Source: Pempheris klunzingeri (lineage: Eukaryota > Chordata > Actinopteri > Acropomatiformes > Pempheridae). From it: a DNA stretch of 64,000 nt. The stretch is taken from NCBI RefSeq assembly GCF_042242105.1, contig NC_092032.1:13999915-14063914 (forward strand), written 5' to 3'. A program made the translations under genes and the position numbers. Positions 32,301 to 63,030 of the stretch are shown here, piece by piece (within the stretch, counting starts at the first letter, position 1; every line of letters begins with the position of its first letter). The notes under the pieces were generated by a model. That model had not been told where the DNA came from. It worked only from the letters and a program-made list of their open reading frames with translations, and did not search any database.

Positions 32301-35300
32301 GGGAGACAGCGGTGGAGACAGGCTAGTGTCAAGTGTGTGTGGATTTTTTTGCCAGTGTCTGTGAATGTCTGTCTGTGTGTGTGAGTCTGACTGAATTTTC
32401 TATGCTAATTGATTCCAGTGTGGCGCGCTCCATCACACCCAATAGGGCAGTCAAGCCCTCCCCTATAATGTGCCAACACGTCTCCCACAGACATACCGTT
32501 TAATCTCCTCTGAAGGGCTTCCTCTTGCAAATGGATGCAGTAAATCTGCTCATCCAGGTCCTCGAGGATCTGAAGGGGAGGGAGCAGAGTAGGAAGAGAT
32601 GAAATGGGTTATAATTAGGCCCAAAGTGGGACTGGAGAGATGGCAGATGGGAGGATGAGTTGGTGATGTATTTGTAGTCCTCTGTCGTGCATGTAAATGG
32701 CCGACTGAGACAGACATCTTTCAGAACAGAGGCGCAAAGTGGCTTCAAGTCTGAGCACAACTGTTCAGGTGTGTAATCTTTCACCTCTAGTTTTACATTT
32801 CTATAGAAAAAAACCATTTAAAGAGCGACCATAAATATTGATTACTTACTGTTGGCTTCACTAGTAACTGGCCCATGACGGTGAACATCCGGGATAGTCC
32901 AACAGGAGTGCACACTACATATGAGACATAAAACAGTATGATTAGCTCGACCGCTTAACTGTAATAAGGTGATCTACTTTAGTATTAAACTGTTAGTACT
33001 TAAATACCACATCAGCAAAGATACTTTTCTTTTTCAGTGTCTATAACAAAAAATTAAATGACTTACTGAGTAAAAGCAGTCCTCCCATCAGAGATATACA
33101 GGAGTAGAGGTATGGTAGGTAAAATTCCCAAAGATCTACAAAAAAAAAAAAAAAAACATAACACAAATTCAATAAAATATATACTTAAAAGGATAGTTCA
33201 TAAAATTGGGAAATACACAAGAAACTGTTCCAGCATGTGGCTCCTGATAAAACCAGCATTTGTTGTTTTTATAATATGGTTTGAGAAGAGATTGAACAAG
33301 AATAATGAAAAATCTTGAAAGCTTTAAAAGGTGCTGGTTGGCGTATTTTTGAACTTTGGACTGAACCAAGTAAGCTGCTTGCCACTCTGTGAAAAACCAG
33401 TCAAACTATTCCTTATAACTACAACAACAGATTTGCAAGCACAAAGGACAGAATCATTTGGAAACATACCGTAGAGCGACTCCATACTGGCTGCATCATT
33501 GTCAATGAGTGCTGATGCCACCCACACGATGCCCAGGATGAGCAAAGCCAGCAGGAAGAGCATCACAAAGGTCTCCAGAATACGTGCCTTAATGCCCTGA
33601 CAGAAAAAAGTGCACAGAAAGGAAAGAAATCTAATTAGATATGGCTAATGTGGTTGGAATCATTATCGCAATAAACATAAGGATTTCATATCAACATACA
33701 TGAAAAAACATATTAATCAAACACATCGAGCTGGGAGGTGATATTTCCTACATTTCATATCAAATTCTTACACACAGAACAATATTTGTTTTACAAAACA
33801 TCTCCCTCCTCCTCCATCCTGCCTTGCTCATATTAAACACCATCACTTCCATTCACAGCACACAAACATGACAAACGTTCCCATGGATTCTTGTCTAAAA
33901 CAGCGCCCTTATACTCATATATTGTGGTCTATAAAGTGGGTCTAACAGGGGCTGGTGGTGGACGAGGTGAAATTAAAAAGAGTAGAGAAGGGTGGCTGGT
34001 GGGGGGGTGGGGGGTGGGGGGTGGGGGGTTGCTGTAAGGAGCATGAAGCCTGGCTGGGTCAGCTACTGTCTGCGATCAAGAGCAGGCCTTCCATCTGGGG
34101 CCGATTAGGAGCTCCCTTTGCACCACGGTCGTGTCCCTGGCCGCGCAGACGAGAGGGTTTTGGGGTAATTTGGGTTTTCCGGGTCACAAACTGCTGAGTG
34201 GTTAATAAAGTCCTCCTCTACCTGTTCACACAGTTTCCATTTCCCCCCCTGCTGGAGAGCCAAGCTGTAAGATAGGCGCTCTCATACACATGTATGGTAG
34301 GCTACCAGGCACGGGATAACAAGGGCTCTCTGCTTTTGGAACGCTACTTAAATTGGGTACATATGAGCAATTTGTTACCAGCTAACATAATGGCTGTGCG
34401 GTTGCTGTTCAGTATTTGCCAACAGGTACATGATAGGGGGTCTCTCTTTGAAACTTCCCCCTGTTAATCATGTCACTTTATAGAATGGAAATGGTTTCAA
34501 TTCTACAGATTGAATCAGACAAGGCTTAGTTTTCTTTTAATTTCGCAACACAATTTATGATAATCATCCAAACCACCTGTCCTAAGTGTCCTTTACCATC
34601 TGCTTCACAATGTGGGTCACAGTTAAACAACTGCCTCCCTTGCAGCCTAAAATATAGATGCTTCTAACTTACTCTTGAGCTCTCACCTCTTTCACAGCAC
34701 TTTTTTTCACATGAGCATTCATGGGTAATAAATGTATTGGTAATTTTAATTCCACACATTACCACTGACCCATTCAGTCCATACCTTGGATAGTGTGATA
34801 AGGATTTTAAGCTCTCAGATTCCATTCATCACCATTGGTGAAATCCCTTATAGCATCCTTTCGCTATTACTGAGCAATCACTTGCCTCTCACATCCTCTT
34901 ATGAAGATACTCAGGTAAAGCCTCAGTGTAGAATTTTCTAGCATAACGGGGAAGAAAGTGGGCAGGGTCTGGAGTGCCCCAGTGTGGCCAAGATGGACAC
35001 TGCAGCCACTTGACAGGTAATGTTCAAAAGGGTGAGTGGGCTTTATAGAGTCTTTAGTCAGCACAGTCAAGCAAACCTAACAAACCTTTGTGATATAATA
35101 TGAATAAATATGTATATTAATACATACATTACAGTGAAAATACCTTAAGGGAGCCATATATGCATATTTGATGTTATACCATAAACCAACTGTAAATTCA
35201 CCACTCAATGCAGATCAATACACTAAAAACATAGCCACAAATCTGACATGGACATTCAATTCTGCTGACTGCCTCATGCTCTTTTGCACACACTTGCACG

Positions 35301-38300
35301 CCCTGAGTTCACGAGATGGATGCTGCAATCAGGCATCTCACAGCCCAGCTCAACTGGGCAGAGGGGAAAACACTCAACACCGGAGAATAAAAAAGGGCGA
35401 AAGGAATGGAGATGGGAGAGCAATAGGGAGAAATAAAAAGAGAAAACAACAAAGCGAGGGACTGGCAGAAGAGAAGAGTCAACATCTGAGCGCATCTCAT
35501 TCCCCAGAGGTAGGAGAGGTGAGAGAGGAATGCTTTCAGGGACTTCAGCCACGTCCCACACGCGCTCTCTTAAGGATGCATCAGGACAAATAGGAGCCGT
35601 AGGCAGGACGCGCGTCCACTCAAGCGCACCAGTCCACCTTAACAAGCTGCCCATGCCATGCTGAAGGTGTATTCCCTTTAGATAGGCCTCTCAATCATTT
35701 ATAAGACTCAAATCATTACCCATTCAGATCATTTAGGGCAAAGGCAATGCTTGTCACCTCCCTTACTATCATCCCTGGTTCCTGCCTCGCTGGAAGAACA
35801 ATCCACTGTGTCAGACATGATTTGACTGTGCAAGAGAAAGGACACTGAACTGTGAGCCCAGATTGGTTTCATTGATCGAGCCACATGCATGACATTGCAC
35901 TCTGAAAGTTTTGTCTATCCTTACCGCTTCTTCCAAGGGAAAAGCTAAGTCCTTTATTCCTCCTCACAAAGTTAAAGATGGGCGAATGTGTGCTTTGAAA
36001 AAATATGGTACAAAAATAGGAAAATCCAACTAAGCTCTTATCATTGATCAAAGATAACATTGTCAACTGGTGAAGGAAGGGAAGAAAAAAAGAAAAAGAC
36101 CTGTGCCTTGGCATTCAGAGCGCCCGCTGAAAGTTTCTATTCTTGCCATTCTAAATGTGTAACTACCTCTAAATATAGCAGCTCTGAAATATTCAGCATC
36201 CCCTGATCCTCACACCGACATCGAATGAGGGGCTGGTTAACTGCAGCTCTGCTCAAACAAGACTGGAGAGACTTCCAAGAAATGCGTGTAGTGGCCAGAG
36301 AGGAAAGTAACCGCTTCATATGCAGTACCAAACAAACATGCATGAATCCAAGTACGCTCACACATACACACATGCACACGACCAGCCAAGTAAATCAACC
36401 TCCAAATCCACCCAATTACGCAAAGCTGCAGAGGGCCTGGAAACGGTTCACAAGCTTTTTCGCCTAGCTTTTGCAGCGCAAAAACTAAAGCACAATCTGC
36501 CACTGTCTTTGATGTAGAGACTCGGCTGAAGAATCCAGCAGAGAGTTCACCTCTGGAAGTTGAATCGCACCGTGCAATGGTGGACAAGTGTGAGAGAGAG
36601 TGAGAGATAATACTTGGGAAGGTGTATGGCTGTGATGGTGCAGGGCTCTGTTGGGGTGAGGGGGGTCAGACAAAGGAAGAGAGTTAGGTGGTGCTGGAGC
36701 TTCCTAGTTGCCGCCATCAATCCTTAGCAGGTCAGCAGGCAGTGACAGAGATCATCCCGCAGACCATCTTTCTGCTCACTGTCAGGGGCGTGTGGAACAA
36801 GGGCCAAAAGTGTAATAAGTGAGGGAGGGGGCAGGGTCCTTTTTTGCTCCCTAGCAAAAGGACTGCCCTGTTTGCTAAAGACATGCCAGATGCCCAGGGA
36901 CCTTATTAGCGTATCCTTCAACCAGTCGGCCACAGCGCAATGACCGTGTCAAAGACAGAAAGCAGAGGAGAGGGACACTCCCCTGTAAAGCTGCACAATG
37001 AACTTCTAAAGACTCTTAATAAGACTTCTTAATAAAGCACCAATGACACGAGAGCATGGAGAATGATCAGCATCACATCGTATCGTTCAAACTGAGGGCA
37101 GGGGGGGTTTGGCAAGAAAAAGAAAACACAGTTGTGTAAGTTCAATAACTTGGTTTTTGGGATGTGAATTAAATCTCCTGTTTCCCTGCTGGTTTCCTGA
37201 CTGATTCACCAGATGAGTTAGAAAACAGAAGAATTTAAATGAAGGAAGCAGCTTCAGGGCTTTCTGATGTTTGCCAAGTTTTATTTGACATCCTACAGTG
37301 ACGACAGCTTGTTCTGATTACAGAAAGGTGTCAGACTGATGAGTCTTCAAAGGATAAATGACTGTATCCTGGGTTTATCGTCAAGCAAAAGCTTCAGAGC
37401 CAAGTACACCTAGTGGCCTATCAGCATAATACTCCACCCTACTTAAAGTTATGTAAATAAGTTTAAATGTATGATAGATAATATCTTTTTATAAAACCAG
37501 TAAAAACAGCAAAAAATTTGGTACAGAATTGGTTAAGCTTTAGAGCTCATCATTTAGGTTAGAAAAACTGAGTCATGAGAGGAGGGGAGAAGAAATCCTG
37601 AGCAACTCACTTGTTCTTTTTTAAATTCCCAGCTCAAACTAATATGTTGCCATGGTAACAAACATTGTAACAGGCAGCTTTAGGGAGACATTGTGACCTT
37701 AAAGGAAGGTATGTAAACACCACTTTATATTCTCCGGCTGGCCCTGCCCGAAAGAAGGCCTGGGAAAAATGTCTGCATGTGCAGGAGATTTGAAATAAAT
37801 ATCCAGGCCCCCATTGTGGAGCTCCAACAAAGACGAGTATCTTAGTAACACCACGCGGGTTTGCTCGGCGAGACGTTTTCTCTCTTTCCCCTCCCCACCC
37901 TCCCCTCCTCTCCCTCCACAATAAACACACTTCTCATCATTGGCGGGTTAGGGCTTAGGATGAGATTGATGAGGAGTTTCTTTAACTACCAGATGAAACC
38001 TGTTGGCCCTTTGCTGGGTCAGCCAGGGGGTCAGACTCGTTCCAACTCGTTTCAGGATCAAACACATTTCAATACTGTGGGTAAGACCACAAGACTATTC
38101 ACTGCAGAGCATACTTCCCACAATTTATGTTGTTTCTTGACATAAAAACCAAAATTTTTAAAACTTTGACATTCTGGTTACTTCATCATACTTATGTTAC
38201 AATAATTGTTAGTGACACAGGCTGTTGCATTAAATATATATTTTTAGCTTGAGATTATAAACATCTGAGTGTTGGTGCTACGAAAATTAGATTAGACTGC

Positions 38301-41300
38301 ACTAGATAAAGACCAGAAAATTGTCATTATCAAAACTTTCTTCTTTTTTTTTTTTTTTACTTTGATCTACTTGTTTAAGTAAATATAGTTTCAAGATATC
38401 ATAAACGTCATGCATTATTATTAAGCCAATATAAGTCCCTTGATACAAATAGAAGTCTGAACAAAGGCTGGTGCTGATGTCTTCACAGAACGCACTGATC
38501 ATCTCAATAAGAGTGACAGGAATGGCACTCATCATCATAATGCCATCTACTGGTGGTGTGGAGACAACTATAACAGATTTAGAAATGCTATATTGGGCTT
38601 TATAAAGAGGAGATTTTTATCTTTCCAGCAGCCAAACAACACATAGCACTTCATTTTAGAATACTACTTTATATGCAAGACACAACTGCAGAAACACGCC
38701 TTGGTAAAGAGGTTTTTAAAACACCATCAAGACCAAAAAACCCAAACTACACAACAACCTTTAGTGGCCTTAGTGATGCACTCTTATGCAAAGATTAGAG
38801 TACACAGCAGTAAAGTGGGAGACATTTTACAGCAGCAAATAAAGCTAGATCATAACATCTGACATCAAGACCCTAAGTCACTCTGATTCATCCACAATTT
38901 GGACAATTTGTTAAACTATTAATCACTCAGGTGACAGAGCCTCTGAAGAGCTGAACAGTTAACATCAGCAAAAAAAAGAAAAAAACATTCACATTTCCAT
39001 CTTTATTCTGGTGGCGTCTTTTAGTACATCGTCAAAAGTAAACACAGCCACATGAAAAGGCTGACTTACAACGTTAGTAGTGAAATTCATCATTCACTTC
39101 ATTTCCGCAGTCAAAAGGACCTCGCAGTGCCATAACATTAGCCCAGGAGGTTAAAATGCCACATAAAACCTTACGACATTGTGGTCTAATGCTGTTATTG
39201 GAGAAAGGGATAATATCACATTATAAAATCTGGGATCTGTGTTTTATATTCCCCTTGCTGTCAGCCACATGATCGACTCTGCAGGCAGCTCAGTGTTTTA
39301 GGTGAAACAGGAATATCACCTCCACCCCTTCCATAACAAACACACAATATATACCTGGAAGTGCAGCTCAACATTGAACAGTGCTTCCTCTAAGCAAATT
39401 TATGGAAGATCAGTAGCAAGAAACAGTCTTGCAGAAATGAAAAAGAACAAAAAGGACAAATGTGAAAGAGGCCCTCATCCTGCGCCCAACACATCACTGC
39501 CTTCTACCGAAGAAATCCAACCGAAACAAATTAGTGGGCTGAGGAAGAAAGAAGTGGCTATACGCTACAGTACAGACTAATTTTTATGTGCTTTTGCCAG
39601 GAGGGACATAAACCAGAGAGGTTTCAAACTGTGACACAGGATAGAGGTGTATTAAAAGTAAATCTTTCCCCCTCCATTTTGCGAGGCTCTATTGTGCTGT
39701 CATGTTGCTGCGACTTTATGGACTTTTGGAACACGAGCCCCCAGCCTCTTTTTTGGGGGGTAATCAATTAAACGAGGAAGTTCGCTGAGCCTTACAACTC
39801 GATTATTAGCCTGTCCTTTTGAAGTTTTATTTTAGGGGGCTGGGGAGGGGGTGACAAGGAATCAGGCTTTAAATCAGTGGGGCCGATACAGCAGTGTTGA
39901 AGCGTTTGCAGCCTATGGCCTTATTGGAAGGGTTTGTCAGGATGTGGCGCTGGGCGAAGTCCAGATTCAGACTTTCATGGTTAATGAGGTTTCTGCGGTG
40001 GCAGTTACAGTCAGTGGCGTGAGTCAGAGAGAGGGCAAAGACTAGGCACCTGCTGCTGCTTTGGCTGTTAAGACAGAACCCCTTGCATGGATAGCAAAGC
40101 ACACAAATACATCAACATAAAAGACAGAAAATAAATAAGGTTCCACGTTTTCCAATTAAGTTTCATGTTTTTTCAGGCCTTAGTTTTAAACATTGCAGAT
40201 TGTCTAGTTTTCAACTCTGACTCACTGACAGTTACTTAAGTATCAGAATCACAAAAACTATTCTGAGGAATTTTTAAAGTTTGTGTCAGACTTTAAGAGC
40301 CCAACAAGTGTCAGATTCATTTTCTACTTCCAACGCTTTCTTGAGGTTAGCCAGTAACTTTGCGAAACATGCAAAGAAAAATAAACGAAAACAAAAATGA
40401 AGCATATCAATTTAATATTTAAGGCAATGTACCTTTTTTGATCCCGCAAATCCCTCAGACTCCAAGAAGAAATAGGCAAAGGGCATCAGGACAAAGAGGC
40501 AAAGGTTGGAGAACAGTGACACCAGGTTCCACAGACCTGCAGAAACCAAGTATACAGTATGTGAGGGTACACATACAGCTGTACGCAAAAAATATATGTA
40601 ATACATCAAAATCCAGTGCTATTTCTAATGTGAGTGGACACATTTTTCGGGCTTGGTGAGGTTTTGATAACAGGTTTTCCCAGAATGTTCAATGCTTTCC
40701 CTTGAATTTTATTATGTAGTAGTTGTGAAGTGAGGTGCCAACACAGGGCTTTATCTGGCAAGTGTCTTCCTCCTATGTCCAAGTCATGGACTCTAATGCC
40801 CCCTGGTGGCTCTCGAACCACCCAACACCCTTCTGGTTGTTGACAGACTGCATGACTGACAGACATTCTTAAATCTCACATGGTTTGGTTTTAAATTAAG
40901 GAAAGAAACTGGCTTACACCATCACGTTAATACACATTTAAGATTAACACGATCGTCTGTGTTTAGCTACATCTTGATATGACAATAGTTTTTCCCTCAG
41001 AAACACGTATTCATCCCAAAAATGTTTCAGTGAAGCTCTGAGCATTGTTACTAAACATTGCAAATACTGTTTTGATCATAAACTGTACTGACAACAACAA
41101 AGAGAACCACAACAGAAAAGTCAACAGATGGTGTCAGTTTTGAAAAGTGAGACAAAAAATGCTGCATTCTACCAAGAATGAAACAAGATGGGACTCTTTT
41201 AACCAAAGTCAAAGTGAGGCAGATCCACACCCCAGTTTAGTAATATACTGTTTTAATCTATTTTGTGTTTAAAAGCTTGAAACTGCAACCATGCCTTTTT

Positions 41301-44300
41301 TTTTGGAGTACCTCTACTCCTGTCCTGTCTGCTCCACCTCTGGGGGTGTGGAGTTGAGAGACACCAAGATACAAAGAACAACTATGCCAATGGGATCATT
41401 TCATTTCAAAAAGAGAAACTGTGCTGACTAAACACAAGATTATATGTGATTATATGTTAATTCAGGCATTTTTCATGGAACATTTTCAAATTGAAGCATA
41501 TTATTTACCTTGAAGATATAACGCTTAAAATTAAGCATTTTTATGCATTAAGAAAAAAAATCCCACTGTATTTAGAGAACACATGATAATCTTAATTTTT
41601 TTTAATCATATGGTGTGGCAATAATTTAATATTGTCAAACATTATCCAATAATGTTTGGCTGTGTATTCAAATTTCTGTGAGCAGAGTTCAAACTTTTAA
41701 AATTGTTTTGATTTAGAACTTAATAATAACAGTTATTGGTGGTAAATCAAAGATTTTTGACACCACTTTAACATATAATGTAATTTAGCTGTTCAAATGA
41801 AGACTGTGTTATATGACCTACATAAAAATACTGTTTATTGAACCAACGTTTCTGTGGGTGTTATTGCACAGCGTGTTAAATAATACATCGATTGATTGTG
41901 ACATTCATGTAAAAAGCTAATTATGATTATAATCAATGTTAGAAGACATTTACTTTAAAAGAGCAGAAGAGCTGAGAGAGAGAAAACCAGTTAATGAAAT
42001 AAGACACGTGAACTGTGGGACCTACTGACCGTGAATGAGGGAGCCATTGAGCCACTGAATGTAATAGTTTTTGGGGAAGGAGAGGAGGATCTCGTTACTA
42101 ATGATCGAGAAAGGCAGCAGGAAGACGGCACCACCCGACACTGCCAGGGTGAAGGTGCACAAGTATAATCTGCAAATGGAATCAAACACACACAAACAGA
42201 CCAAAAAAAAAAAACACACACACACCTGTTAGGACTAGTCGAGACAAAAGCAAGTGCAGTATCAAAACAGGCTAATACTACCTTTTTTTTCTTTTTCCAA
42301 GTCAGATTACATGTGACAGACAATTACTGGAGGATTAATTTTGGATTACAGGTTACTTTATGAAAGAGTCACTTTGTTTACAGCGTAACAAGAATTAATA
42401 AGCAAAAGCCAGTGAGGAATTAACTTATTTAGGAAAGCAACCACTTAAATAGCAAGGATTAAACTGCTAGCAAGTTCATTGTCAACCTATACTTGCAATC
42501 ATCCTTCTACTCCTCAATTTAATCCACAATCTTCCCCAGTTGTGGGACAAAAGACGTGGACCGGCTGGGCTGTAGAGACTCAGAGGCTGTAGGTCCTCAG
42601 ATTGGGCCCAGGGGAGTGACCATCTGCTCAGTGGTCCTCAGAAGGGCAGCAAAAAGTCCCCACTGGACCATATCACTAAAGGAGCTCATTAACTGAAATG
42701 CTTTCCATTATTTAGCGGGACCCTTAGGTACCATTTTGCTTAGCTGGACCTAAACATGCTTGTGGCTACAGAAGGCACCCTGATAGTGAAGTGTACTGTA
42801 ACTCTAAACTGAGTGACATGGGATACTTGTCACCACAGTTCTAGCTAATGACACAAGCTGTAAGATGTTCATGGTGTCAGTGGTAGTCAGAAAAGTAATG
42901 CAATGCGTTTTTTAAATTTAAGTGATTAGCCATTAGTAATAGGGCTGCAACTAATAATTATTTTTGTTATTACTTCATCTACTGATCATTTTCTAGGTTA
43001 ATCAATTTCATCCTAAAGCCCAAGGTGACGTAGTCCAATGTCTTTTTTTATCCAAACAAACTCAAAAACCCAAAGATATTCACCTCACTATGATATAAAT
43101 GAAAAAAAGAAAATATTTATATTTATTAAGAGAATATTTATCATTTTTGCTAGAAAATATGGCTTAAATCATTATGTTGACGTATAAAAATAAGTTAATA
43201 TCAATTAATCATTTCAGCTACAATTAGTAACATTTTACTGAAACGCATTTTAAATATACTGTATACAATAATTAAAAAAGATACGATTACCATTTCCCCA
43301 TTAACTAAATAAAGAGTTACTCTTGCTTCACTCAACGCACCAACTTCTGTAATACTTTGTTCTAAACAGAAGAGTTAAGTGAAATATCAGCTTTACTCAC
43401 GATATTCTGTTGACAACAGCATCTTCATCCTCGTGATCATCTATAAAGGAAAACCAAACCACTTCAGTCACAGGGTGGTTAGAGTGTGACCTTTTGAGCC
43501 GTATAAAGTCCACATTTCATACATCACATCTTACATCAAACATTACTGGGAAGAGCAAAGCATTGGGTACATTTTTTATTCAGGACAAGCTGATGTAACT
43601 GTTGAAGCCGGGTCAAATATCTGATATTTTCCCACCCACATCAGCAAATAATAACAAGCTTTTGTGTAGGAGTTACAGGGAATCAGGAACAAAACATCTT
43701 CAGTATTGGAGACATACCTAAGTATTTCTTTCATCTGTAAATCTTTCTAAAACTATGTAAACCATGAGACCTTTCCTCCACTGCTTTTCATATATATTTT
43801 ATACACCCAGCTGCCAGTTTATTAGGTACACCTTGCTAAAACTAATGTATTCTAATACAACAGTAGCCCTGAAACGAATCCCCCCCTTCATGAAGACTAT
43901 ACTGTTCAGTTTTTGTTGAGGGGACGTTGCCTTCGTTTTAGCATGGTATAGCTAATGCAAATGAGTATATATTTATATGAGGCATATTTTTTTTATTAAA
44001 AAAAACCTTTTATAATAATTTCACAATATCAGTTTTGACATTGGGATCATTTCATATCAGAAATAGAAATTACATGGCACACGTACCGATTATGTTTTTA
44101 CATATAGCTGTCATCTCTTATTGTAATTTTTTAAATCAGTCAAAGTACATATTCGACAGTGACAGATAAAATAGTATGAAAGGAATTGGTGCATGAGCTA
44201 ATAATCATAAAAATATGTAAGACAGTGTACAGTATGCTCAAATAAACTGTATTAAGTACTGCTGTAAGGCCACTTTATATCTCACAATTAATCTCTACCG

Positions 44301-47300
44301 CATGTGAAAATATTAGGCTTCCATACCACTAGGTGTAAGGAAAAGAGCAGCCTAGATTTCTACTGTACAAAACTCCAGAAGGGATCTCTGGTGCAAAGTG
44401 GTCTACTTTCAAAATGAGACAAGGGAAGCCTAGATGACCTGGACGTACTAAATTTGTCCTGGGAAAATGGGATAAAGTTCATAGTGTCTGCCTAAGCCTT
44501 CTTGTTTTCAGCTGTTTTCTCCTTTGTAACTCGGTCAGACTTTTATCTGCAGTTAATTTCTGCCTGCTGCAGCTCAAATGCTGCGTCAGAGATGGCACAG
44601 ACCAAAACACATGATTCTGTTAAATAAACCTTTTGAAATCCAGACTTTCCTTGAGTCTATAGTGTTATTAATATCATTCAGCAGGGTGAACAGGCTATGT
44701 CAGTTTTAGACCAATTGTTATGATGTGACAGATGTTATTCATTTTCCCCACGGCCCAAAAAGAAATGTGGGGCGGATACAGTTGACGCTGATACAAAGCT
44801 GACTGTGGCAGATTACTCTACAAGCATGGGTGTGGTCTCTCACTCACACACACACACCTAAAGCCTTCTTGGCCGACTTCCTTTCATTCTAAACACAATG
44901 AAGGGCTCTGTCTATGAGCAAACAGCATAACCTGACAGACAGACTAACCTCTACAAGGTTTGCTGTGAAAATGGGTCCCGCCATGGACACATTTCTGCTG
45001 TTTAAGTGTTACAGATGCTTTGAGACGAGTCAGGGTTTCACTGTGGCACATGCCAATTTCTCTTCCCACGGAGTGAGAATCACTTTACAGAATCACTTAC
45101 CAGTCTTCCTCTTGTATCGGGTTATGATGCAGTAGGACACAATGTAGAGGACTGCAAACAGGAGGAAGCAAATCTGAAACGACAACATAAGAATCTTATT
45201 CAAGGATTTTCTACAACTATAGTTGAATCAACACATTAGCAAGCAGCTAGTGACATTTCACCACTTCCTGCTTCTGTATGTCCCCTTCAACAGACTACGG
45301 GATTGTTAAACTTTACTGTGTGTGTATAATCTCAATGCTTACTATATGCAGGGCCCACAGGTGGGTGGTGCAGCAGGTGACAACGCTGGTTCAGTAATAA
45401 ACAAGTCAAACAGAGGTTTATGGATAACTTATGTTTATGGAAACAATAACACTCAAAATTAATCGCTGTGTCATGTACAGCTGACACGTGCATTGTCTTG
45501 TGTGTCTTAATTGACAATAAAATTGAAATACAAATGTTCTACCTGTGTTGGCGACCCAAGTACAGGAAAGACTGTATATGCAGTATGTATGTAGTCAGAT
45601 TATATATTAAATGCTGCAAGACCTCAGTGTAGCCTCAGTATTTACCCATGACCAACAGTCTGATGTGAATGTAAAAGCTGTGTATGTACTGCACTTTTTG
45701 GGGCGATTTCAACTACATTATGCCTGATAAGTTGTGTTTAAACAATGACTAGTTTTTAGATCCACAACTGAAGATTATTCTTATTATCAATAAATCTATG
45801 GATTATTTTCTTGATTGAGCAATGGATCATCTGGACAGCAGAACATCAGCAATTAGCCAAATTTGCTCATCATGAATAAACATTTCATTTTGTCCGTACA
45901 ACAGTCCAAAATCAAAAAATACGACTGAGATGGTGAAATCAGTTATTTTCCCAATTTTTGCTGAAAACATTTACCTAAATGATTTAACAACAAAATAATA
46001 ATGAACTAATTCAATCAGATAATTGTACAGTAACTGTAATAGTGGATTATGTTTGACTGAAGAGTGTTTGAGTCCAGCTCAGGCAGGGTATCAGAGTGCA
46101 CACAGACTTACCAACCTGTAAATTTCCTCTTGTGCTCTAATATGGTTGAAAATAATACTTAATCACTTCATATTTGTGCAGCATGTAAATGTAATTTTTT
46201 TAACATTTGGGTTAGGAGTGTTAAAGCGAGCAGTATCAAGAAAACAAAATAATTCCCACACAAATCATCAGCTTCTAAGCAGTGTAACTTAACATTGAGC
46301 TTCCTTGATCTTAATGTGAGTACACCCACGGAGCTGTCTCTGAGAGGTAGGATGGGAGTAGGCAGCCTCTTGTTATGAACAGGCAGGAAACGGAGCAGAT
46401 CACTCACTTATAATACTTGGGAACAATCACTGACGCTAAACTCACCATTTAAACCAATGACAATGTCTACACAAGGCAGCGGCTTTCTCTCCTAAAGAAA
46501 CTGAGGAGCTTCAACGCCAGCAAACACACCCTGATCATAGTCAAAGGTCACACACTGGGAGTATTCTCACCCACAACATTGTCTTCCACTGAGGGATAAC
46601 TGAGGGAGGGAACCTCTCAGTTACACAGCAGGAACAAGCTGACCCAGGTGGTTAACCAGGCCAGCAAGATCACTGGAAATAAACAACTGCAACTCCAGAG
46701 CTTATACAAACGGTCCATAAACAAACAGGCAGCCGTGGTCTATAATGATCCCACTCATCACTCCAGCTGATGCCATCTGGGGGAGACTCAAGGTCCAACT
46801 ACCCTGGAAAAATGGCACAAGAAGTTGTCATTTCTAGCTACTTAAATGGAGACATAAAAAAATAGCATAATAATTTGGCTGTCATTTTCTTTCTGTTTTA
46901 CACTGTGTTGGAGGAATGTCAGCAAATTTCTGTTTAATGTCACGGACAATAACGTTTTCTTATCTTATGACCCATTTATTTGATTCGAACAAAAGTGAGC
47001 AAAACATCATTGTTTTCAAATGTCTGCTAACAGTAATTAAACCAACACTACATGCAAACTACAATAGAAGTTACCAATGCATGGAATTTATTATCAGGTA
47101 ACCATGGCCTCAAAACAAGCTGGATGGTCTTACGGAAAAGATCACATTTCACTTTCCCCCCCTTCTACTGTGACAGTGACCGGGCACAACTAATGTTAGA
47201 AGCTCCCACTTCAGCACTTTGCACCCTGTCAACATTGCACAACTCATCATGTCCAAGCTGGGATTACCAGATGACTCAGCCAGACACCAGGCAGACCGTG

Positions 47301-49905
47301 CACATTCCAGACGGACAAACTGGTGTAAAAAGAAATGTGAAACCTCCTCAGTCAGTCTGGAGATATATAGTGTTTTATGATTGCTGTAGCAAAAAGTTTC
47401 TCTTTTCACTTAGAGTCGCCTTCCAAATGAGAGACAGCTGACTTTTACTCCATTGACAATCTACAGAACTGTTTCTCTGCTTCAGCAAAGGGGTGAACAC
47501 AGAATAACTCAGGTGTATAGAGCTGATAAACTGGCACAGACAAAGATACAACGGTTTGGGAACAGACCAGTCAACACCAATGCCAGCGCCAAAGTTATTA
47601 CTCAGTTTTTCCTCAAATAATGTGGAGCAGAACTGTAAACAAAGGAACAGGAGAGGCTAATAACAAGGCAGGCGTCTCACAAAGCGGTTTGCAAGCATCC
47701 CCAACCAATTTAGGAACAGTATTTCACACCTTTATGATAGATGACCACAAGCTGGAGGAGCGGGAGAGTAATTACGTTTTTCTGAAAGGGGATCCTAAAA
47801 TTCCTGCAAGTGCATGATCAGACTGGTGTGTTTTCATGCACTGTAGTGTTGCTACTATTGATGGTCATGATGCACCAACATGCAACACAGGTTTATTCAG
47901 TTTAAGTCACAATACATTATAAGTTAAATGCATTTTAATCATAAGTAATTGACTGACACACACAAACACCCAAATACCTGGCCATATATATCATTAGCAG
48001 GGTTTATGTAAGTGTGTGAATTACTGCAGAGGAGACTGTGGATAGGAAGAGTAGCATGATATTGGGAAGTCTGTTGTAAGTACACATTATATTGTGTCCT
48101 TATAGTAATAATAGTTTGTACCAAAAAGTGGCTGTCCATGCTGGGATTTCAAGTATAAATTGTTCAACACAGTAAATCTCTGTTTGCAAAAACATGTGAA
48201 AGCATGATAATGATGTTAGAGGTGGCAGTAGAGAATGTAATTACTGACCAAATCACATGTTAACATTATCATGTGTTAACCCAATTGCTCGCAGTAACCT
48301 GGTTTTCTGTGCATTCTTCAGTCACTCTTTACAGTAGGGCTCTATGAACGGAAGAAATACTTTCCCACCATTCAGGTCTAATAAGCGTGTACCACCTTGT
48401 CACTGAGTCATGAGGACCAAGTTACCTCTGCTACAAAATAATCACGCGCCACAATAAATATATTTTGATGCCTGTAGGGATTAATCCACAAAGTGACTCT
48501 CTGTGGACGTTAAGGTTAAATGATAGTGCCATTACAGCATCATGCAAAGGGATCTTAAGTACAGAATGTTGATATGGGATACTAAGAGGAGGCTTAGGAC
48601 AAAATGTGCCAGCTAAAGCTAAGATGTTGAGCTCGGCTGCTGATGAGACATTTGATAGTTTCTATATTTCAGACGTGTGTATCAGGAATAATTGAGAAGA
48701 CCTACATCAGATAAAGTGTCCCCTCTTGAACTTACTCACCCATTTTGTTTTTTTTCTAAAATCATGGCTAGGCATCGAGACACAGTAATGTGATGATCAG
48801 CAACAGCAACTTTCAAGGTGGTTTGCAACTAGGCCAGCCCACTGGGACTTATAAAACACCAAACATAAAGATGCAGTGAACAAACATTTGTCAGACAAGA
48901 ACATTACTTCTTACATACAATATTACACTGCTAACAAAGAACTCAGACTCCTGTCCTAAACTCTACAAATAATCTCTGCCACAAAAACTCTCAAGCAGTA
49001 ACTAAAGTTTTTATAATCTTCCAAGCAGAAGAACTCATCTGGAATTTGTACATTTTACTAAAGAGTGTGGACTTTAAATTATCATAAGGAGTGCTAACAT
49101 GAAGAAATAGCCCACACTTTGTTTTCACTAAATATAATAACAAACAATGAATGCTCTCCTTATGGTAACCTAAGGACAGGAACCTTAGATAACTTAACAT
49201 ATCTACTGACTACTGATCTTTAACTTTTCTGCTGCACATGTTTAGTTATTTTACATGACACATTATGGTCTTAAATTAGGTCTGCACCAAACAACAACAG
49301 GCTGCTACCTGACATATACACTGTGACCTTTATTGGACAATATAATACATTTAGGGACATTACATTAGTGAGATGTACTAGTGCCCACTAGGAGGGACAC
49401 TAGTTTAGTGAGGATTGGGACATTTTGTCCATGTTCATGTTGAAACATGTGAATCGCAGGCATATTTAATAAAAGTCTGCTGCCATTTCACCAGTCAATA
49501 CACGAACTAAGTTACACTGCTGTAATCAGGTAGTTAATGTTAGCCATAGATATACTGATCACTATCATGGTAGCTAACGTCAACATAAGCTAACTTTAAT
49601 TAGCGCGTTCACATAATGTTTATAATTTAAACATGGTTTGGCCAATAACTTCAGTACACATGCAATAAGACATTTATTGGGGTGTAACATAAAATGAGCA
49701 ACTTTTACCCAGCTTAATAAAATCTTCCGCGTCAATCTGACAGCTGAAGCTAACGTTAGCTCCCGTTAACGTCCCTGTGCAGTAGAGGACGTTGTTAGCC
49801 TGCTAGCCTCGGCTAGCTGCTCCGCACGTTAACGTTACTTACGATGTACTCTCGAACTTGGCTGTGGAAATTCTGCTCTCTGATAGTAACGTCGTCTTCT
49901 TCCAT
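17379..49905 (-). CDS. lmbr1: Limb region 1 protein homolog (17 coding exons)
   Basis: Exons in gene order: 49905-49843, 45173-45101, 43440-43401, 42169-42030, 40536-40433, 33596-33470, 33135-33067, 32914-32850, 32569-32497, 28347-28258, 27130-27057, 26601-26524, 22156-22083, 21817-21727, 21116-21050, 18124-17963, 17464-17379. The joined frame is 1476 nt, 491 aa; human LMBR1 is 490. It is a multipass membrane protein of the LMBR1 family. Recognisable blocks are LPFSIISNEILLSFP, LGIVWVASALIDNDAASMES, RMFTVMGQLLVKPT, YLMVSSVVGFYSLR and FDLLGDFGRFNWLGNFYIVL; the tail NGHQKTL matches human NGHQKAL. The loop after exon 9 diverges most. Exon 11 uses the AG ending at 27131, giving KLEERKAS, one residue shorter than human; the AG 4 nt upstream breaks frame. 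Intron 13 is U12-type. Function of the protein is poorly known; the gene is best known as host of the shh limb enhancer in intron 5. Confidence 0.95.
18430..18680. promoter_or_regulatory. Candidate noncoding element in lmbr1 intron 15
   Basis: Non-repetitive block with CATATTTAATTC, CATAAACAGGC and CTTAAATAAACC, and with balanced composition unlike the flanking AT-rich DNA. Candidate only. The rest of intron 15 holds a MITE-like copy at 20665-20945 and otherwise nothing I recognise. Confidence 0.25.
20665..20945. mobile_element. Palindromic teleost MITE-like element, shorter copy
   Basis: Begins GACATTGTAGGAAATATGCATAT and contains AGCCAGTTAGCTGATCTTAGC, GTTTCCGGTCTTTATGCC and AAGCCAAGCTAACC, the two arms of the 13732-14586 element without its core. 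It ends in a decayed form of the inverted terminus (CTATTTCTTAAAAT). In lmbr1 intron 15. Confidence 0.65.
21818..22082 (-). other. U12-type (minor spliceosome) intron 13 of lmbr1
   Basis: On the gene strand the donor is TT/GTATCCTTTC, matching the U12 GT-AG consensus GTATCCTT. TCCTTGAT, matching the U12 branch site TCCTTRAY, lies with its A 16 nt before the end of the closing AG (GCTGAACAG/CTAC). The intron is 265 bp and splits a Phe codon after base two. It is the only lmbr1 intron here with these signals. Confidence 0.85.
22157..26523 (-). other. lmbr1 intron 12
   Basis: 4.4 kb with no recognised exon. It includes a C-rich stretch (22547-22569, G-rich on the gene strand) and an eight- to nine-G run near 23598. 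26150-26420 is a balanced-composition block containing GCCTGATTAACATC, possibly regulatory. Nothing else is supportable. Confidence 0.6.
27572..27633. repeat. GT/GAGT simple repeat with terminal G run
   Basis: TG units interrupted by GAGTG, ending in nine Gs, in lmbr1 intron 10. Confidence 0.9.
28406..28690 (+). repeat. Teleost GGGCTGCAACTA repeat, copy 2
   Basis: Starts TTAGGGCTGCAACTAAC, interior has CAGTCCAGAAACCAAAG, and ends TTAATCGACTAATTGTTTCAGC, giving matching arms. In lmbr1 intron 9. Confidence 0.8.
29090..29420. promoter_or_regulatory. Candidate enhancer block in lmbr1 intron 9
   Basis: Contains a perfect POU octamer ATTTGCAT (29170-29177), GACCAATTAG near 29200 and the palindromic TCF/LEF-like CTTTGATCAAA (29288-29298) next to CCAATCA. 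Non-repetitive and non-coding. lmbr1 introns are known hosts of regulatory DNA for shh; the claim for this block is inference from motif density. Confidence 0.35.
30193..30802. mobile_element. GGGCTGGGCAATA-ended repeat with a nested insertion
   Basis: The left end is GGGCTGGGCAATACGGC with AAACATATGATCACAGTAAT and TCATTTATCACAACATATAG. The right end is TTATCACAATATTGAGATTG followed by TTTTATCACCCTGCTCT, an eroded inverted copy of the left end. This is a common teleost element. A LINE/SINE-type tail (30425-30555) interrupts it. Confidence 0.65.
30425..30555 (+). mobile_element. Retroposon 3' tail with ATT repeat, nested
   Basis: TTGTATTCTGTACGGCGACC, then TTGAAAGGCGCC and TAAATAAAATGTATTATTATTATTA, is the shared 3' tail of abundant fish L2-type LINEs and their SINEs. 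The tandem ATT marks the end. Only the tail remains. Confidence 0.6.
34001..34028 (+). other. G-quadruplex motif
   Basis: Four G runs of 7, 6, 6 and 6 separated by single Ts, on the strand opposite lmbr1 mRNA. One-base loops predict a very stable parallel quadruplex. Two shorter GG runs precede it (33991-33999). Confidence 0.85.
37560..37860. promoter_or_regulatory. Candidate element with perfect RFX X-box, lmbr1 intron 5
   Basis: GTTGCCATGGTAAC at 37646-37659 fits the X-box with a two-base spacer and is close to the palindromic ideal. It sits in a non-repetitive block that also has CTGAGTCATGAG (AP-1/bZIP-like, 37569-37580) and GTATGTAAACACC (forkhead-like, near 37711). Regulatory role inferred. 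Confidence 0.4.
39590..40060. promoter_or_regulatory. Candidate ZRS (shh limb/fin enhancer)
   Basis: This intron 5 block begins about 370 bp past the intron's 5' end. It has low repeat content, long balanced composition and the factor classes known to act at the ZRS. HOX-type cores are TTTATGG (39715-39721) and TTTTATTT (39826-39833), a homeodomain palindrome TAATCAATTAA is at 39761-39771, and ETS cores are AGGAAGT (39775-39781) and AGGATGT (39940-39946). A TTTCATGGTTAATGAGG block is at 39973-39989. The intron is the established ZRS host; which part of it is the ZRS is my inference, and I could not align it. Confidence 0.5.
42941..43220 (+). repeat. Teleost GGGCTGCAACTA repeat, copy 3
   Basis: Starts AGGGCTGCAACTAATAATTA, interior has AAGCCCAAGGTGACGTAGTC and ACCCAAAGATATTCACC (the family hallmark), and ends ATCAATTAATCATTTCAGC. 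In lmbr1 intron 3. Confidence 0.85.
43800..43920 (+). repeat. Teleost CCAGTTTATTAGGTACACC repeat
   Basis: CAGCTGCCAGTTTATTAGG, TACACCTTGCTAAAACTAATG and TTCTAATACAACAGTAGCCC form a phrase that recurs widely in fish genomes. In lmbr1 intron 2; right boundary uncertain. Confidence 0.65.
45750..46030 (+). repeat. Teleost GGGCTGCAACTA repeat, copy 4 (decayed)
   Basis: Interior hallmarks remain: TCAATAAATCTATGGATTAT, ACAACAGTCCAAAATC and AACTAATTCAATCAGATAATTG. The left terminus is eroded to CCACAACTGAAGATTATT. In lmbr1 intron 1. Confidence 0.6.
46405..46840 (+). pseudogene. Decayed LINE ORF2 C-terminal fragment
   Basis: Despite stops and frameshifts, frame pieces read YLGTITDAKLT, then LSLLKKLRSFNASK, then LTQVVNQASKITG and LQSLYKRSINKQAAVVYNDP. 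This order is the C-terminal part of the reverse-transcriptase protein of fish L2/Rex-type LINEs. No intact frame; inactive. In lmbr1 intron 1. Positions 46841-49842 of the same intron show nothing else except TAACGTTA-type motifs near the promoter. Confidence 0.75.
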
Positions 49906-50292
49906 TCTTCATATTGCAAATACAAAAAAAAAACAGACTCACTACATGCTAGCTCGGACAACTGGCAACGACAGCAACAACAACTCCGGCGTCTTCCCTC
50001 CTCTCTGTAATGAGTGCTGACTGGTTAACAGACAGTTTACATGGCAGGAAAACCGCTCCGTGATAAAACTAAACGCCCCAAAATAAAGTACGTCATCACC
50101 ACACGACAGGACGTTGGCGTGCCCCGGAAGTAAAAGGTCACGTGCTGTTGTCCTCATGGAGATACATGTGCAGTTTAAGGTATTTATGTGTTTACAGCAG
50201 GCGAGTTTCCTTTTTGTAGCGCAGTAGCTTGTTAGCCTAGCTGAGCGGCAGTGCTTTTTAATAGACAGGTATCGTGAGTTTAAGGTGTTGCG
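49906..50292. promoter_or_regulatory. Bidirectional lmbr1-nom1 promoter
   Basis: The two start codons face away from each other across 387 bp. Inside are a CRE-like TACGTCA (50089-50095), an ETS/GABPA site CCGGAAGT (50124-50131) and an E-box GTCACGTG (50137-50144; core CACGTG). There is no TATA box. ETS plus E-box motifs and head-to-head spacing are typical of shared housekeeping promoters; the CACGTG would suit MYC/USF control of a nucleolar gene. Shared use is inference. Confidence 0.75.
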
Positions 50293-53200
50293 ATGAAGGG
50301 AAAATGGAAGCAAAACAGCAAAAAGAAGAAAGGAAATGCAATGTTGCAGAAGTACAGGGTAGCAGTGGATGACTTTATCAAAAGCAAAAATGACCCTGAG
50401 GAAGCTGAGGATGACCATGGCTTGAGATTTGTAAAGAAGAAGAGCAGAAAGGAGTTGCGCAAAGAAAAGCGAAAAATGAAAAAAGCTAAAATGAAAAGTC
50501 ATTATGAAGGCAAAAAGACCCTCGGTTCACCCATTGGTGATGGTGAAAACTCGGAAGCACCAGCTGACACACAGCCCCAGCAGCAGCAGCAGAAGAAGAA
50601 GAAAAAGAAGACGGAGAAAGCAAATGAAGAAGTGTCAAAGTCCAGTAGTGCCCCTCCAGAGAAATCAGACAACTCTAAAACACCCAAATCGTCCAAGAAA
50701 GGCAAGAAAGCCAATAAGCTTCAAGAGTCAAGAAAAATGGCACTTCTGGAAGCAAATGAAGACGAGGACAGAGAAATAAAGAAATTAGAGCGACGTCTGG
50801 GATTAAATAAGAGAAAAAACAAGAAAAGTCTCCCTCAGTCCTTTGTGGCTGATGGACTTGATTACATCCTTGGTATGCTTGACTCTGGCTCGTCAGCGGT
50901 GGGGATGTATGATGATGACGATGACATGGACATGGCCAAGGAGAACTTTGAAAAGCTTGATGAAAGCGACTCTGCGCTGTCAGACGAGGACGAGGAACAT
51001 GGAGAGGAGATGGCGAGTGAAGGCAGTGATGAAGATGTGGGTTCATCTGATGATGAGGAGGAGGAGGATGGCGGTGATGGTGATGATGATGGTGTTGATG
51101 ATGAAATGGCTGAAGAAGATGGGGAGGAAATGGAGGAAGACGAGGATGAGTTGGACGAGAGTGATGCAGCTGACTCGGACAATGAAAATGAAGAGGGAGC
51201 AGAGGAGGAGGAAGACACTCCTGACTTAAAGACATCAGACTCACACTCAGAAACTGTGAGTTCAGACGTTCGTTAATTATTGTCATAATATTGACGTCTT
51301 GTCTGCCGTATAATGGATCTAATTGTAAGTTACAATACTCAGGTCGACCCTGCAGCTGGTAAGTACGTACCTCCTCATCTGCGAAACACTGGAGATGATA
51401 AGCGCAAAGCGGAGCTGGAAAAACTGAAGAGGAACGTGAAAGGCCTGGTGAACAGGTAACAGTCTGACATAGCACACATCCTTTCTCTTAGAAATGTAAA
51501 AGTTGTATTCACAAACACACCATTCTCAGTTTAATACGCTCTGGTGTGCTAGAGAAAAGCATTTTACCAGAGTCAGTATTAAAATCGTAACTCTTTCCTT
51601 TCTAGAAAGTGTAAGTTTCCCTACTGATGCTTCAAGAAGCGAGCCCTCACATTTGGAACCAGAACCAATGTTTGAATAGTAATAGATTTGTTCTTGACTT
51701 GAGTTAGCCCTCTTAGAATCATCCATCCTTCTTCTAACTTGTTCAGGCTGAGTGAGCCCAACATGGCGTCCATCAGTGGTCAGCTGGCGGAGCTGTACAT
51801 GAGCTGCAGCAGGAAGGACATGAATGACACCCTAACAGAGGTGCTGCTAGCTGCCTGCGTCACCCCGACCCTGATGCCTGACAGACTGCTGATGGAGCAC
51901 GTCCTACTTGTCAGCGTCCTCCATCACACCGTGGGGTTAGAGGTGAGCAAACAAGAGCAGAAGGCAGTTTTGTAGGTCAGGTCTGCAAAATAGATGTGAG
52001 GTCGTATGAAGCACTTAATCAAAGAAAGTGTATTACTTGCAGTAGATTGCGTTCGGCTTGCCCCCAGTTTGGAGAAGCAGGCAGGAGTCGTGACACAGAT
52101 GCTTAGCAATCTACTGCTGTGGATGGGGGCAGATGAAATGCATAATGTAGCCACCTGAAAAAGGCCTAACTAAAGAAATCAGTGTCACCTGAAGTAATAT
52201 TTTCACTGCTTGCATTGCTCCATTTCTCATGGGGAACTGAAGGTGTCCTCTCCACTCTTTTCAAAGCCACCAGACTTCATTGACAAAAATAGCAATTTTA
52301 CCCCACAGAACTTTGTAGTTGCCGGTCTACCACTGCCTTGATTGGTTAGTTTGTGCCTTTTGTGTTATTGTGTGACTTTGGCGTCTTAGATGGTTTGTTC
52401 AGATCCAAACTAATATTTTAGTTTATTGACTGCGTTAGCTGTAAACCAGCAACTCCCGTCTTCTGGAAAAATGACTGCTGTTGTGAATGGAGTCCGGCGG
52501 CTTGGAGGAGAGAACGCGTAAATAAAGAGAAATATTTTAAATATTGCAGACACTTTGCTGAAATATATTTTGCTGCTGTCCCCGTCTACAGCAGTACTTA
52601 GTGCTGGGACTAACTATGGATAGTCACCATATACCCCATATCATAAAATCTGAACTATCCCTTTAAGGTCACTGTCTTTTGCTGAGTAACAGCAGAGGTC
52701 AAGTAACCTTTGGTTTTACCAGCCTGTGTGTGAGAAATAAGAACCACTGACCTGACAATTTACATCAGCTCTTTGATTATTTATTGGAGGCACTTTTTCA
52801 AAGGGATGAGCTGCTTTCGCACACCACACCTGTGGGCTAATGTTCTTTTAATGAATTGGAAAGTGATATCCAACGCCTTGGTTTCCTCTGCTGAAAGTGT
52901 AATAGAATTGTTATCTCTCTGTTGTATTGACTCTCCCATCGTGTAAATGACCTGAAACACGACCATCAGTAAAATAAACTGTGGTCCACAATGGGCTTTC
53001 AACACAGTTTGAGGGATCTTTGAAATTATTTAAGAAAAATTTTGTACCATCATGTTTTACACTTATTTGCTGAAATCTGAAGTTGAAGTAGCAGTCTTAG
53101 AATAAATATTAGAATCAACATTGACTTTTGTGGGTCTGTTTGTGCTAGAGTTTTACAATACGCAATAGATATTTGTAATTTATAATCCATTACAACATGA

Positions 53201-56200
53201 ATCACAAGACTCTAATATTCTCTTTTGATCACTCCCCAGGTGGGAGCCAGTTTTCTGGAGACGGTCGTGCGTAAGTTTTACGAGTTGTACAAGAACCCAA
53301 CTGAAGGCAAGGAGTGCGACAACCTGGTGGCCATCACCGGCCATCTCTATAACTTCCAGGTGATGCATTCACTCCTCATCTTCGACATCCTGAAACTTTT
53401 GGTTGGAGCCTTTACGGAGAAGGACGTCGAACTCATTTTATTTGTGCTGAGGAATGTCGGCTTCGCTCTGAGGAAGGACGACGCTCTGGCTCTCAAGGAG
53501 CTCATCTCTGAAGGCCAACGCAAGGCCATCGAAATGGGGTCGAAGTTTCAGGATCAAACCAGGGTGGGCCAACAGAAATACTTTTTAATTTGATATTCTC
53601 AGTGACATCCAATTTTTGGGTGTTTGCCACAGTATTCTGTAATTTATTTCTCAGTTATGTGTCAGTTGTGGAATATCAGTTGTATGTACACATGTTCTCA
53701 GGTGCGTTTCATGCTGGAAACCATGTTGGCTTTGAAGAACAACGATATGAGGAAGATTCCAGGCTACGATCCCGAGCCAGTGGAGAGACTGAGGAAGCTG
53801 CAGAGGACTCTGGTGGGTGATTTTCACAACATGACCATATCTCATTAAAAATATCCTTATTTTCTGTAGATTTTCAGTGTCTAACTTATACACACTAATT
53901 CATTTGTCATTCTGAATAATATTCTCACAAGATAATGTGGTTTTATAGCAGCTTCCGCTTTAACCACCAGATGGCATCAGAGTGTCACTTTTGCAGACCC
54001 AAAGTCCTCAGTGTTGCTGATGCTTTTAGCCTAACCATCAGCATGGCTGTTTCAACAGTTGACTACCTCAGGAATGTTAATTTGGCGTCCTTCTTTGGTA
54101 TTTTACAACTGGTGATTGCCTCCTAACTGCACTTGAGGCTGATTCTTTGTAAATGTGCTGCTCAGATCCACCGGAGCGCAGGAGGCAGTGACATGAAACT
54201 GAGGGTCTCTCTGGACAATCTCCTGGCAGCAGAGCAAGTGGGCCGCTGGTGGATCGTCGGCTCCTCATGGAGCGGAGCCCCCATGATCAGGGAACAAGGG
54301 AGCGCTGCGTCAAAACAGAGTACCGCGGAAGGACAGGTAGAGTATTGGAACCACAGTGCTGTGTCCATCCCAGTACAGATCTGCATGTGTTTAAGCCATG
54401 CGGTGGTACAGAAAGCAGATACTGAACTGATCATGTCCCATTTAGTCTGTGCTGCAGTATATCTACTATTTGTAGTATTGTACTTTTGTGCTATTTCAAA
54501 ATCCTCAGATCTAATTTTTTACAGTTTAAAAGTAAATCTTTTGTCACTTTACATTAATCATTCATCATCACCATCATATGAATTACATTTGTGTGCACAG
54601 TACCAGCAGGCTACAATGTATTTTAGTGCTTCAGAAGGTCAGTATTGCCCTTATTGGTCAACACAAATTGTCAGTATTAAGTCTGGGTGTCAGACCTCAG
54701 TACTTTTTTGGCACTAACTGAACCGTGGTAGTTGCACCAAATATCAAAAGCTGTCAGTTTTCTATGACACATTTGTAATCTCACTATGTTGTTCCGATAG
54801 TTCCGAACTTGCATTAAAATTTCACCACATTTTATTACGTTCTTGTATCAGCAGGAGCATCAAAATGATTTTTTAATGGAACCCAAGTCTAGTCAGTATT
54901 ATTCAGTAATGTCAGCGCTTTGATGAGTGTACTTGGCCTCAACAGCGTTTCTCGCTCAACTGTTGTCATTGTTTTATTTGATTCAGTTCAGCGCCAAAGT
55001 CTTAGAGCTGGCGAGGAAACAGAGGATGAACACTGAGGTCAGACGAAACATCTTCTGTGTGATTATGACCAGCGAAGATTACCTGGATGCATTCGAGAAA
55101 CTACTCAGGTTTGTCATCACTCTCCTCCTCCTCCACAGTGTGTCACTACGTTAACTTCGCTGACCAAAGAGGAAAATAAGGCATGCTTATTTTAGCTTTT
55201 GTTTATGTTGTTGATATTCTAAAGCCTTTGCTCTTTGCTCTGTGTGAAGGATGGGCCTGAAGGACAAGCAGGAGAGAGAGATTGTTCACGTTCTGATGGA
55301 CTGCTGCCTGCAGGAGAAAGCCTTCAACGCCTATTATGCTGTGCTGGGGGAGAAATTCTGCTCCCAAGACCGTCGCTTCCAGGTACTCTAGCTGGTTAAT
55401 GGGCTACCACCACAACTACAATCAGATTAGTTCATTCAATTAATAAAACAGTCCTTCTTCTAGACAATCGTTTGATGTAAACACATGAAATTATTATGTT
55501 GAAAGCACTAAATAGTAAATAAAAAGTGCATGCTGAAAAAGCACATAATATCTAATTACTCACCTAATTTGCATGATCAGCGTCAGAAATGTAATCTATA
55601 TAAATATAGTAGCTATACCAATACTGTAAGTTTTAATTAGTTTCTTGATTTATTAATCTTTTAGTCTACAAAAGTCATAAAATTGTGAAAAATGCCAAAT
55701 AATCAATCTTCTGGCTAGTCTCAAATTATTATTTTTCAATCAATCGAGCAATTAATTAATTGACTTATCAGTTCACCTCTAGTCATGTTTCAGTAGTCAT
55801 TATGTTACTGCAGAAGCTAAATAAATACATGAACAAATTTCAGCTCAAGTAATTATCATAATCAGATTAGCGGAACTAAATCTCTAATAGTTTATATAAA
55901 TGTTGCGCTCATTAAAGGTACCATTTAAAGCTTTATTACACTCTGTACATTATCTGAAAACGACTCGCATGGACTGGAAATTGTATCAAACACCCATCAA
56001 AGATGGCAGTTTTAAAGTTAGAGAAGCCAGTTGACTGTTCATTTCATTACGAGAAAATGAGAACAGTCACATTTATGATTGAATTACCTGCTGGACGTGT
56101 GTGACCACCCAGCCTCTTAAACTGTGTGTGACCTGCGTGTGGCCTGCAGTTCACCTCTGCAGTGTGGGAGCCTCTCACACCTCACCCCTCTGATATTATT

Positions 56201-60394: not shown

Positions 60395-62461
<2,067 letters not shown>

Positions 62462-63030
62462 TGGGCCCCCGGTGCGCGTCCTTGTCGCCTCTGCTGCCGT
62501 CAACGAAGGAGAAGTCGGTGCCGTTTTCCCACCTCTCAAAAGTTATGATGTGGTCCGGAGTGTGAGAGAGGAGCTCCGTGTGACACTTAATCCCTGTCAG
62601 ATGGAGGCGATTGGTGCAGCCGTCTGTAGGGGGCTGGCCCAGGCGTCACAGACCCAACAACGCCTCTCTGCTAGAATCACTGTACAGCACGGTGTTGGCT
62701 GCGTTATTGCTTTCATAAAATACTGCTATTATAGGAAAAATGACGCAAACGTTTGAAATAAAACTTACGGTTTTTTTGATGAATTATAACTGGATGCTAT
62801 TTTCGCCTATATATATAATTCACTAACAGTGGCTTTATGGAGCAAACGTTTCCAACGTGACTGAAGGACTTTATTCGTTTTATGATTATAGGAGTAAGTT
62901 TGCTCCTCCTGCTGTACATATTTGAGGATTGGCTCACTGTGTACGTCACCAATTTGACCAAGGTCACAGGAGAAGGTAACATTTTATTAAACACAAGCAC
63001 TCCAGAAAGTTCCTCTTTATATAAAAATAT
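62462..63030 (-). promoter_or_regulatory. mnx1 5' UTR and core promoter region
   Basis: On the gene strand, TTTTTATATAAAG (63015-63027) is a good TATA box. A start about 30 bp on would give a 5' UTR near 520 nt. A reverse CCAAT (62926-62930) lies inside that UTR, so another start is possible. The sequence next to the ATG is GC-rich. Start site not determinable from sequence alone. Confidence 0.35.

Follow-up and report, generated by a model that had tools for sequence, protein, structure and literature searches.

The ZRS (MFCS1) is the shh fin/limb enhancer of lmbr1 intron 5, and in mouse and human it activates posterior limb-bud expression of Shh across a distance of 800-1,000 kb (PMC5561167, cited here in extract, as are the other accounts of ZRS structure and function). 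The excerpted text of the same paper describes four CATAAA Hoxsites, three of which lie inside a 110-bp deletion around the Werner site, and Hoxd13 site 1 is given elsewhere in the form [CT]AATAAAA (PMC12263586, in extract). The ETS1 site is required for reporter expression of a shortened mouse ZRS, according to the extract of PMC3978833. A probe for this site, ETS#1, which holds potential HOX sites and an E-box within 20 bp, is bound by ETV2, HOXD13 and HAND2/E47, and the available part of that report gives no sign of direct interaction between them (PMC9304341). In axolotl, the limits of the ZRS were set by aligning it to the sequences of human, mouse, chick and fugu; a reporter built on it labels Shh-expressing limb-bud cells (PMC12176643, in extract). 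Among teleosts, a ZRS and a shadow ZRS (sZRS) are described as shh/shha fin elements in medaka and zebrafish (PMC8673081, PMC12714565), and in zebrafish the repression of either one leads to pectoral fin defects (PMC12714565, both papers in extract).

To place the present element, we analyzed the window, that is, the whole 64-kb stretch of fish DNA, in which an earlier note had located a candidate ZRS within intron 5 of lmbr1. This location is borne out by the flanking exons and splice sites. With human LMBR1 as query, tblastn recovers lmbr1 collinear on the minus strand, residue 4 falling at 49899 and the C-terminus at 17382; residues 256-279 find no tblastn match in the window, and scattered weak matches elsewhere in the window (E 1.8 to 8.5) were set aside. 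Five coding exons lie upstream of the intron, which runs from a donor at 40432 to an acceptor at 33597: exon 5 ends at 40433 and is followed by gtacat, and exon 6 begins at 33596 and is preceded by ctgtcag, both of which fit splice sites. Independently of this query, the joined lmbr1 exon pieces 4-7 match the Pfam family LMBR1 at 1.9e-26, and a PRA1 match at 5.5e-4 on the joined exon pieces falls under the family cut-off; a PDB search with an Lmbr1 piece returned 0 matches. The shh gene itself lies outside the window. Features of the locus are collected in Table 1.

Table 1. Features of the lmbr1 intron 5 locus, in window coordinates; the putative Hoxsite numbers follow the text description in PMC5561167 (in extract)
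Feature	Position	Strand	Remark
lmbr1 exon 1, coding part	49849..49899	-	tblastn limits; ATG at 49905
lmbr1 exon 2	45096..45173	-	tblastn limits
lmbr1 exon 3	43400..43441	-	tblastn limits
lmbr1 exon 4	42028..42168	-	tblastn limits
lmbr1 exon 5	40433..40536	-	GLWNLVSLFSN...GSKK
lmbr1 intron 5	33597..40432	-	splice sites and flanking exons
lmbr1 exon 6	33470..33596	-	GIKARILETFV...
Right half of the block first reported	39830..40060	.	unique sequence; no ZRS similarity found (axolotl compared)
Very probable ZRS ortholog (shh fin/limb enhancer)	39357..39829	-	homology to about 39361; 5' (ETS1) end at 39829
TTTTATTT (AAATAAAA), HOX13-like	39825..39832	+	about 20 bp off the position where axolotl has TAATAAAA
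Composite TAATCAATTAA-ACG-AGGAAGT	39761..39781	+	ETS1 site with adjacent homeodomain cores
HOX core TTTATGG (CCATAAA)	39715..39721	+	in axolotl as CCCATAAAG
HOX core CATAAA, putative Hoxsite 1	39607..39612	+	present in axolotl
HOX core TTTATG (CATAAA), putative Hoxsite 2	39583..39588	+	axolotl: ACAATAAAA
Position aligned with axolotl TATTTTATGG, putative Hoxsite 3 / Hoxd13 site 2	39558..39567	-	fish has TAGCGTATAG
HOX core TTTATG (CATAAA), putative Hoxsite 4	39399..39404	+	in axolotl; human primer ZRS 2r matches here
ETS3-like stretch AGGAAGCACTG...AATGTT	39361..39396	-	1/500 shuffles in the placed test, 10/500 in the wider test

The axolotl ZRS (821 bp; PMC12176643, in extract) is the only full reference ZRS that was compared, and BLASTN with this query finds a single significant place in the window, at 39829-39397 on the minus strand, with 284 identities over 458 alignment columns (113 bits, E 2e-27). 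The runner-up match reaches 26.8 bits (E 0.42), the best of 500 dinucleotide-shuffled axolotl queries 41.1 bits and the reversed query 28.3 bits, and nowhere else in the window is there a sequence similar to the fish ZRS. The similarity extends along the element: axolotl sub-blocks 154-275, 276-440 and 441-590 score 18, 64 and 23 at the matching place, where the shuffle maxima are 14, 15 and 19 (n=500 each), and a run of 24 bases, TCTATCCTGTGTCACAGTTTGAAA, is identical in the two species. A glocal alignment over the whole axolotl ZRS produced apparent matches at both ends, which were then tested separately. The axolotl 1-153 end, compared with 39830-40432, was rejected as chance (74 of 500 shuffles were as good), and 36 bp of the far end were kept. 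These 36 bp, which contain AGGAAG, appear when axolotl 591-660 is compared with the next 97 bp of the fish sequence; the element is therefore carried to about 39361. The same match is found, more weakly, between axolotl 591-821 and 39396-39000. The outer ends of the axolotl element (1-153 and beyond about 636) have no counterpart in the fish. Because it is homology that carries the case, motif density alone being weak evidence, we regard the minus-strand sequence at 39357-39829 as very probably (a probability of roughly 0.97) the teleost ortholog of the ZRS. It would be a further, ordinary ortholog, the ZRSs of medaka and zebrafish being already known; from their descriptions, in extract, as teleost fin elements these two are its expected direct orthologs.

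The limits of the element differ from those first suggested. The earlier note had taken the block 39590-40060 as the ZRS and had proposed an alignment of the intron with known ZRSs as the check; with axolotl, conservation is present at 39590-39829, and at 39830-40060 similarity does not rise above chance. The identity of the block thus stands, and of its borders half was right: the 240 bp at 39590-39829 are ZRS, the left border cuts off about 230 bp, and the 231 bp on the right are unsupported. Since homology spans 39829 to about 39361, these positions give the approximate extent of the ZRS. It is nevertheless conceivable, if unlikely, that the block as reported is the functional unit, with its right half serving as a teleost extension of the ZRS or as part of the shadow ZRS. 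This half is unique, free of tandem repeats and directly adjoins the ZRS, and a 3.4-kb deletion in medaka takes out the ZRS and the sZRS together, so that the sZRS is close by in that species (PMC8673081, in extract); yet the similarity of this flank to the axolotl end is at the chance level given above, and the reported left border runs through the conserved core. The description of the block as non-repetitive holds, as none of the 12 tandem arrays listed overlaps it, and a search with the block in two pieces found no second copy in the window except a 16-base match (E 0.62). A literature search with six sequence strings, of which three were taken from the right flank, one from the composite site described below and two from 37.6-38.1 kb, matched no paper, and scans of viral contigs and genome contigs for a conserved 21-mer had 0 hits. 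With the ZRS as delimited by homology, the fish element is placed to within tens of bases and its borders are corrected, which would allow cuts for deletions and reporters to be made in the right place.

A second, weaker line of evidence for the ZRS comes from primers. We compared 16 primers from papers on the mouse, chicken and human ZRS with the window, each against the maximum of 40 shuffles, and the three that beat this maximum all fall within the ZRS block: mouse P4-reverse (PMC3886911; 21/23 at 39689, shuffle maximum 18), a chicken primer (PMC5425009; 18/21 at 39685, shuffle maximum 17) and human ZRS 2r (PMC9149355; 18/22 at 39396, shuffle maximum 17). None of the remaining 13 rose above chance in the window; among them are the chicken ETS1 primer and human pre-ZRS 1f (at ETS3), which in the aligned part of the axolotl ZRS match at 23/23 and 21/22. 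Compared by primers and descriptions, the mouse, human and chicken ZRSs share with the fish element the position in lmbr1 intron 5, the ETS1 sequence AGGAAGT and the CATAAA cores (PMC5561167, PMC12263586, PMC9304341, all in extract), and the mouse and human elements are conserved over about 770-780 bp, whereas about 470 bp are alignable here (to axolotl).

The individual words are less telling than the alignment. All the motifs named by the earlier note are at the places it gave (TTTATGG at 39715, TTTTATTT at 39825, TAATCAATTAA at 39761 and AGGAAGT at 39775). Over the whole window, AGGAAGT occurs 11 times against 10.35 expected and TTTATGG/CCATAAA 18 times against 12.65, both of which we call near expectation; TTTTATTT is in excess (26 against 7.2), as is TAATCAATTAA (2 against 0.12), the other copy of which lies at 28440. 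Their grouping is rare and exceeds chance: both HOX words share a 471-bp window with AGGAAGT in 351 of 63,530 cases, all in a single run of starts at 39365-39715. We also counted motifs in 475-bp windows sampled every 5 bp. The one covering the block contains five HOX words (at least as many are present in 0.9% of these windows), one ETS word (15.9%) and one homeodomain word (62.7%), without any CAGATG, and 2.4% of the windows attain its summed motif score. It is only in HOX words that the block is dense. That AGGAAGT and TTTATGG singly stand near their expected numbers could be taken to mean that these motifs came together in the intron by chance, a reading to which we attach a negligible probability, as it is refuted by the axolotl alignment and its shuffle controls.

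Within the ZRS, the composite pointed out by the earlier note lies at the ETS1 site. In the fish, TAATCAATTAA at 39761-39771 is separated by 3 bp (ACG) from AGGAAGT at 39775-39781, which bears out the claim that an ETS core stands 3 bp from a homeodomain element. The further claim that TAATCAATTAA is a palindrome does not hold exactly, its complement being TTAATTGATTA; two homeodomain cores lie inside it. A single TAATNNATTA in the window has AGGAAGT within 20 bp, and such a pair is seen in 0 of 60 shuffles of the window. The fish AGGAAGT is aligned with axolotl ETS1 and resembles the chicken primer, and the 3-bp spacing recurs in both, as TAATTAATTAA-GCA-AGGAAGT in axolotl (PMC12176643, in extract) and as TTAA-GCA-AGGAAGT in the chicken primer. 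Because binding to the ETS#1 probe is published (PMC9304341, in extract), the compact composite is already known: it is the ETS1 site of the ZRS, laid out in the same way in axolotl and chicken. The likeness to axolotl extends to about 470 collinear bp, the ETS3-like stretch and the HOX cores CCATAAAG, GGTTTATGTCC and CCATAAATT (PMC12176643, in extract). Differences from axolotl include the E-box CAGTTG near ETS1, which is absent in the fish, the substitution at 39558..39567 (Table 1), ETS3, which reads AGGAAGC in the fish and AGGAAGT in axolotl, and the outer ends, which are not alignable. ETS1 with its homeodomain neighbour, the HOX cores and the 24-base run are thus common to fish and axolotl, and the shared and absent sites are a start at separating the common parts of a fin/limb enhancer from those of axolotl only.

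CATAAA cores are found at four places in the fish element (39399, 39583, 39607 and 39715), of which the one at 39583..39588 falls left of the border set by the earlier note. From the cluster of Hoxsites 1-4, the cores taken as 1, 2 and 4 are present and 3 is absent; the extra CATAAA at 39715 is common to axolotl. At 39558..39567, the presumed Hoxsite 3 / Hoxd13 site 2, there is no HOX core (axolotl TTTTATGG, fish GCGTATAG). Where axolotl has TAATAAAA, at the place of Hoxd13 site 1, the fish reads TAATAAT, and as AAATAAAA stands about 20 bp away, turnover of a HOX13 site within 39802-39832 is possible. The only CANNTG within 39357-39829 is CAAATG at 39457, off the axolotl-aligned E-boxes, and at the places aligned with E-boxes 1-3 of the tetrapod ZRS the fish has no CANNTG. 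The axolotl ZRS has CANNTG only at 20, 239 and 816 and is without CAGATG; because it works nonetheless, such E-boxes are not a condition of membership. The two sequences compared are compatible both with loss of the HOX core and E-box sites in fish and with their gain in tetrapods.

These missing sites would fit a ZRS that has decayed and lost its function, as in certain lineages without fins or limbs; ZRS sites or function are lost in some lungfish and snakes (PMC13121165, PMC5561167, in extract). We consider decay very improbable here: the ETS1 sequence and its spacing to the homeodomain cores are kept and axolotl has the 24-base run unchanged, both signs of lasting selection, and the axolotl ZRS itself works without the CAGATG E-box. 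With neither a canonical HAND2 E-box nor a HOX core beside the Werner site in the fish element, a teleost ZRS that runs on ETS and HOX input alone can also be envisaged, with HAND2 perhaps acting via the shadow ZRS or 39830-40060. We hold this reading to be quite unlikely, although HAND2 acting elsewhere would fit medaka, in which the pectoral fin is only mildly affected when the ZRS alone is lost.

For a ZRS that is kept and working, published work on other vertebrates suggests a mode of action. By analogy with mouse, chicken, axolotl, medaka and zebrafish, ETS factors and 5' HOX proteins would bind the sites present here in the posterior fin bud. The element may then contact the distant shh promoter in cis and would drive posterior fin shh expression, a task that it probably splits with a nearby shadow ZRS. 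A shadow ZRS is expected near the ZRS, and motif counts across intron 5 single out no candidate for it. Two other parts of the intron, 37640-38060 and 36700-36960, are unique and appear by eye to be candidate conserved elements; they lie within about 3 kb of the ZRS, a range in which one might expect a shadow ZRS, and are among the sequences that motif counts do not single out.

Beyond lmbr1, the right part of the window holds two further genes. An acidic, lysine-rich open reading frame at 50284-53593 on the plus strand matches no Pfam family, and its next exon carries a MIF4G domain (Pfam 2.6e-09); from the gene order, this is probably nom1. About 390 bp separate the first ATG of this gene from that of lmbr1, the two genes being divergent, and because of this arrangement the two genes may have a common promoter. 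At 60395-62542 on the minus strand there is a multi-exon homeobox gene, with Pfam Homeodomain matches of 6e-12 and 1.1e-06 in two exons and none in a third open reading frame. A PDB search with the homeodomain matched many homeodomains, none of which gives the gene a name; it is presumably mnx1. Both nom1 and mnx1 are usual neighbours of lmbr1, and an lmbr1-nom1-mnx1 order would match that of tetrapods.
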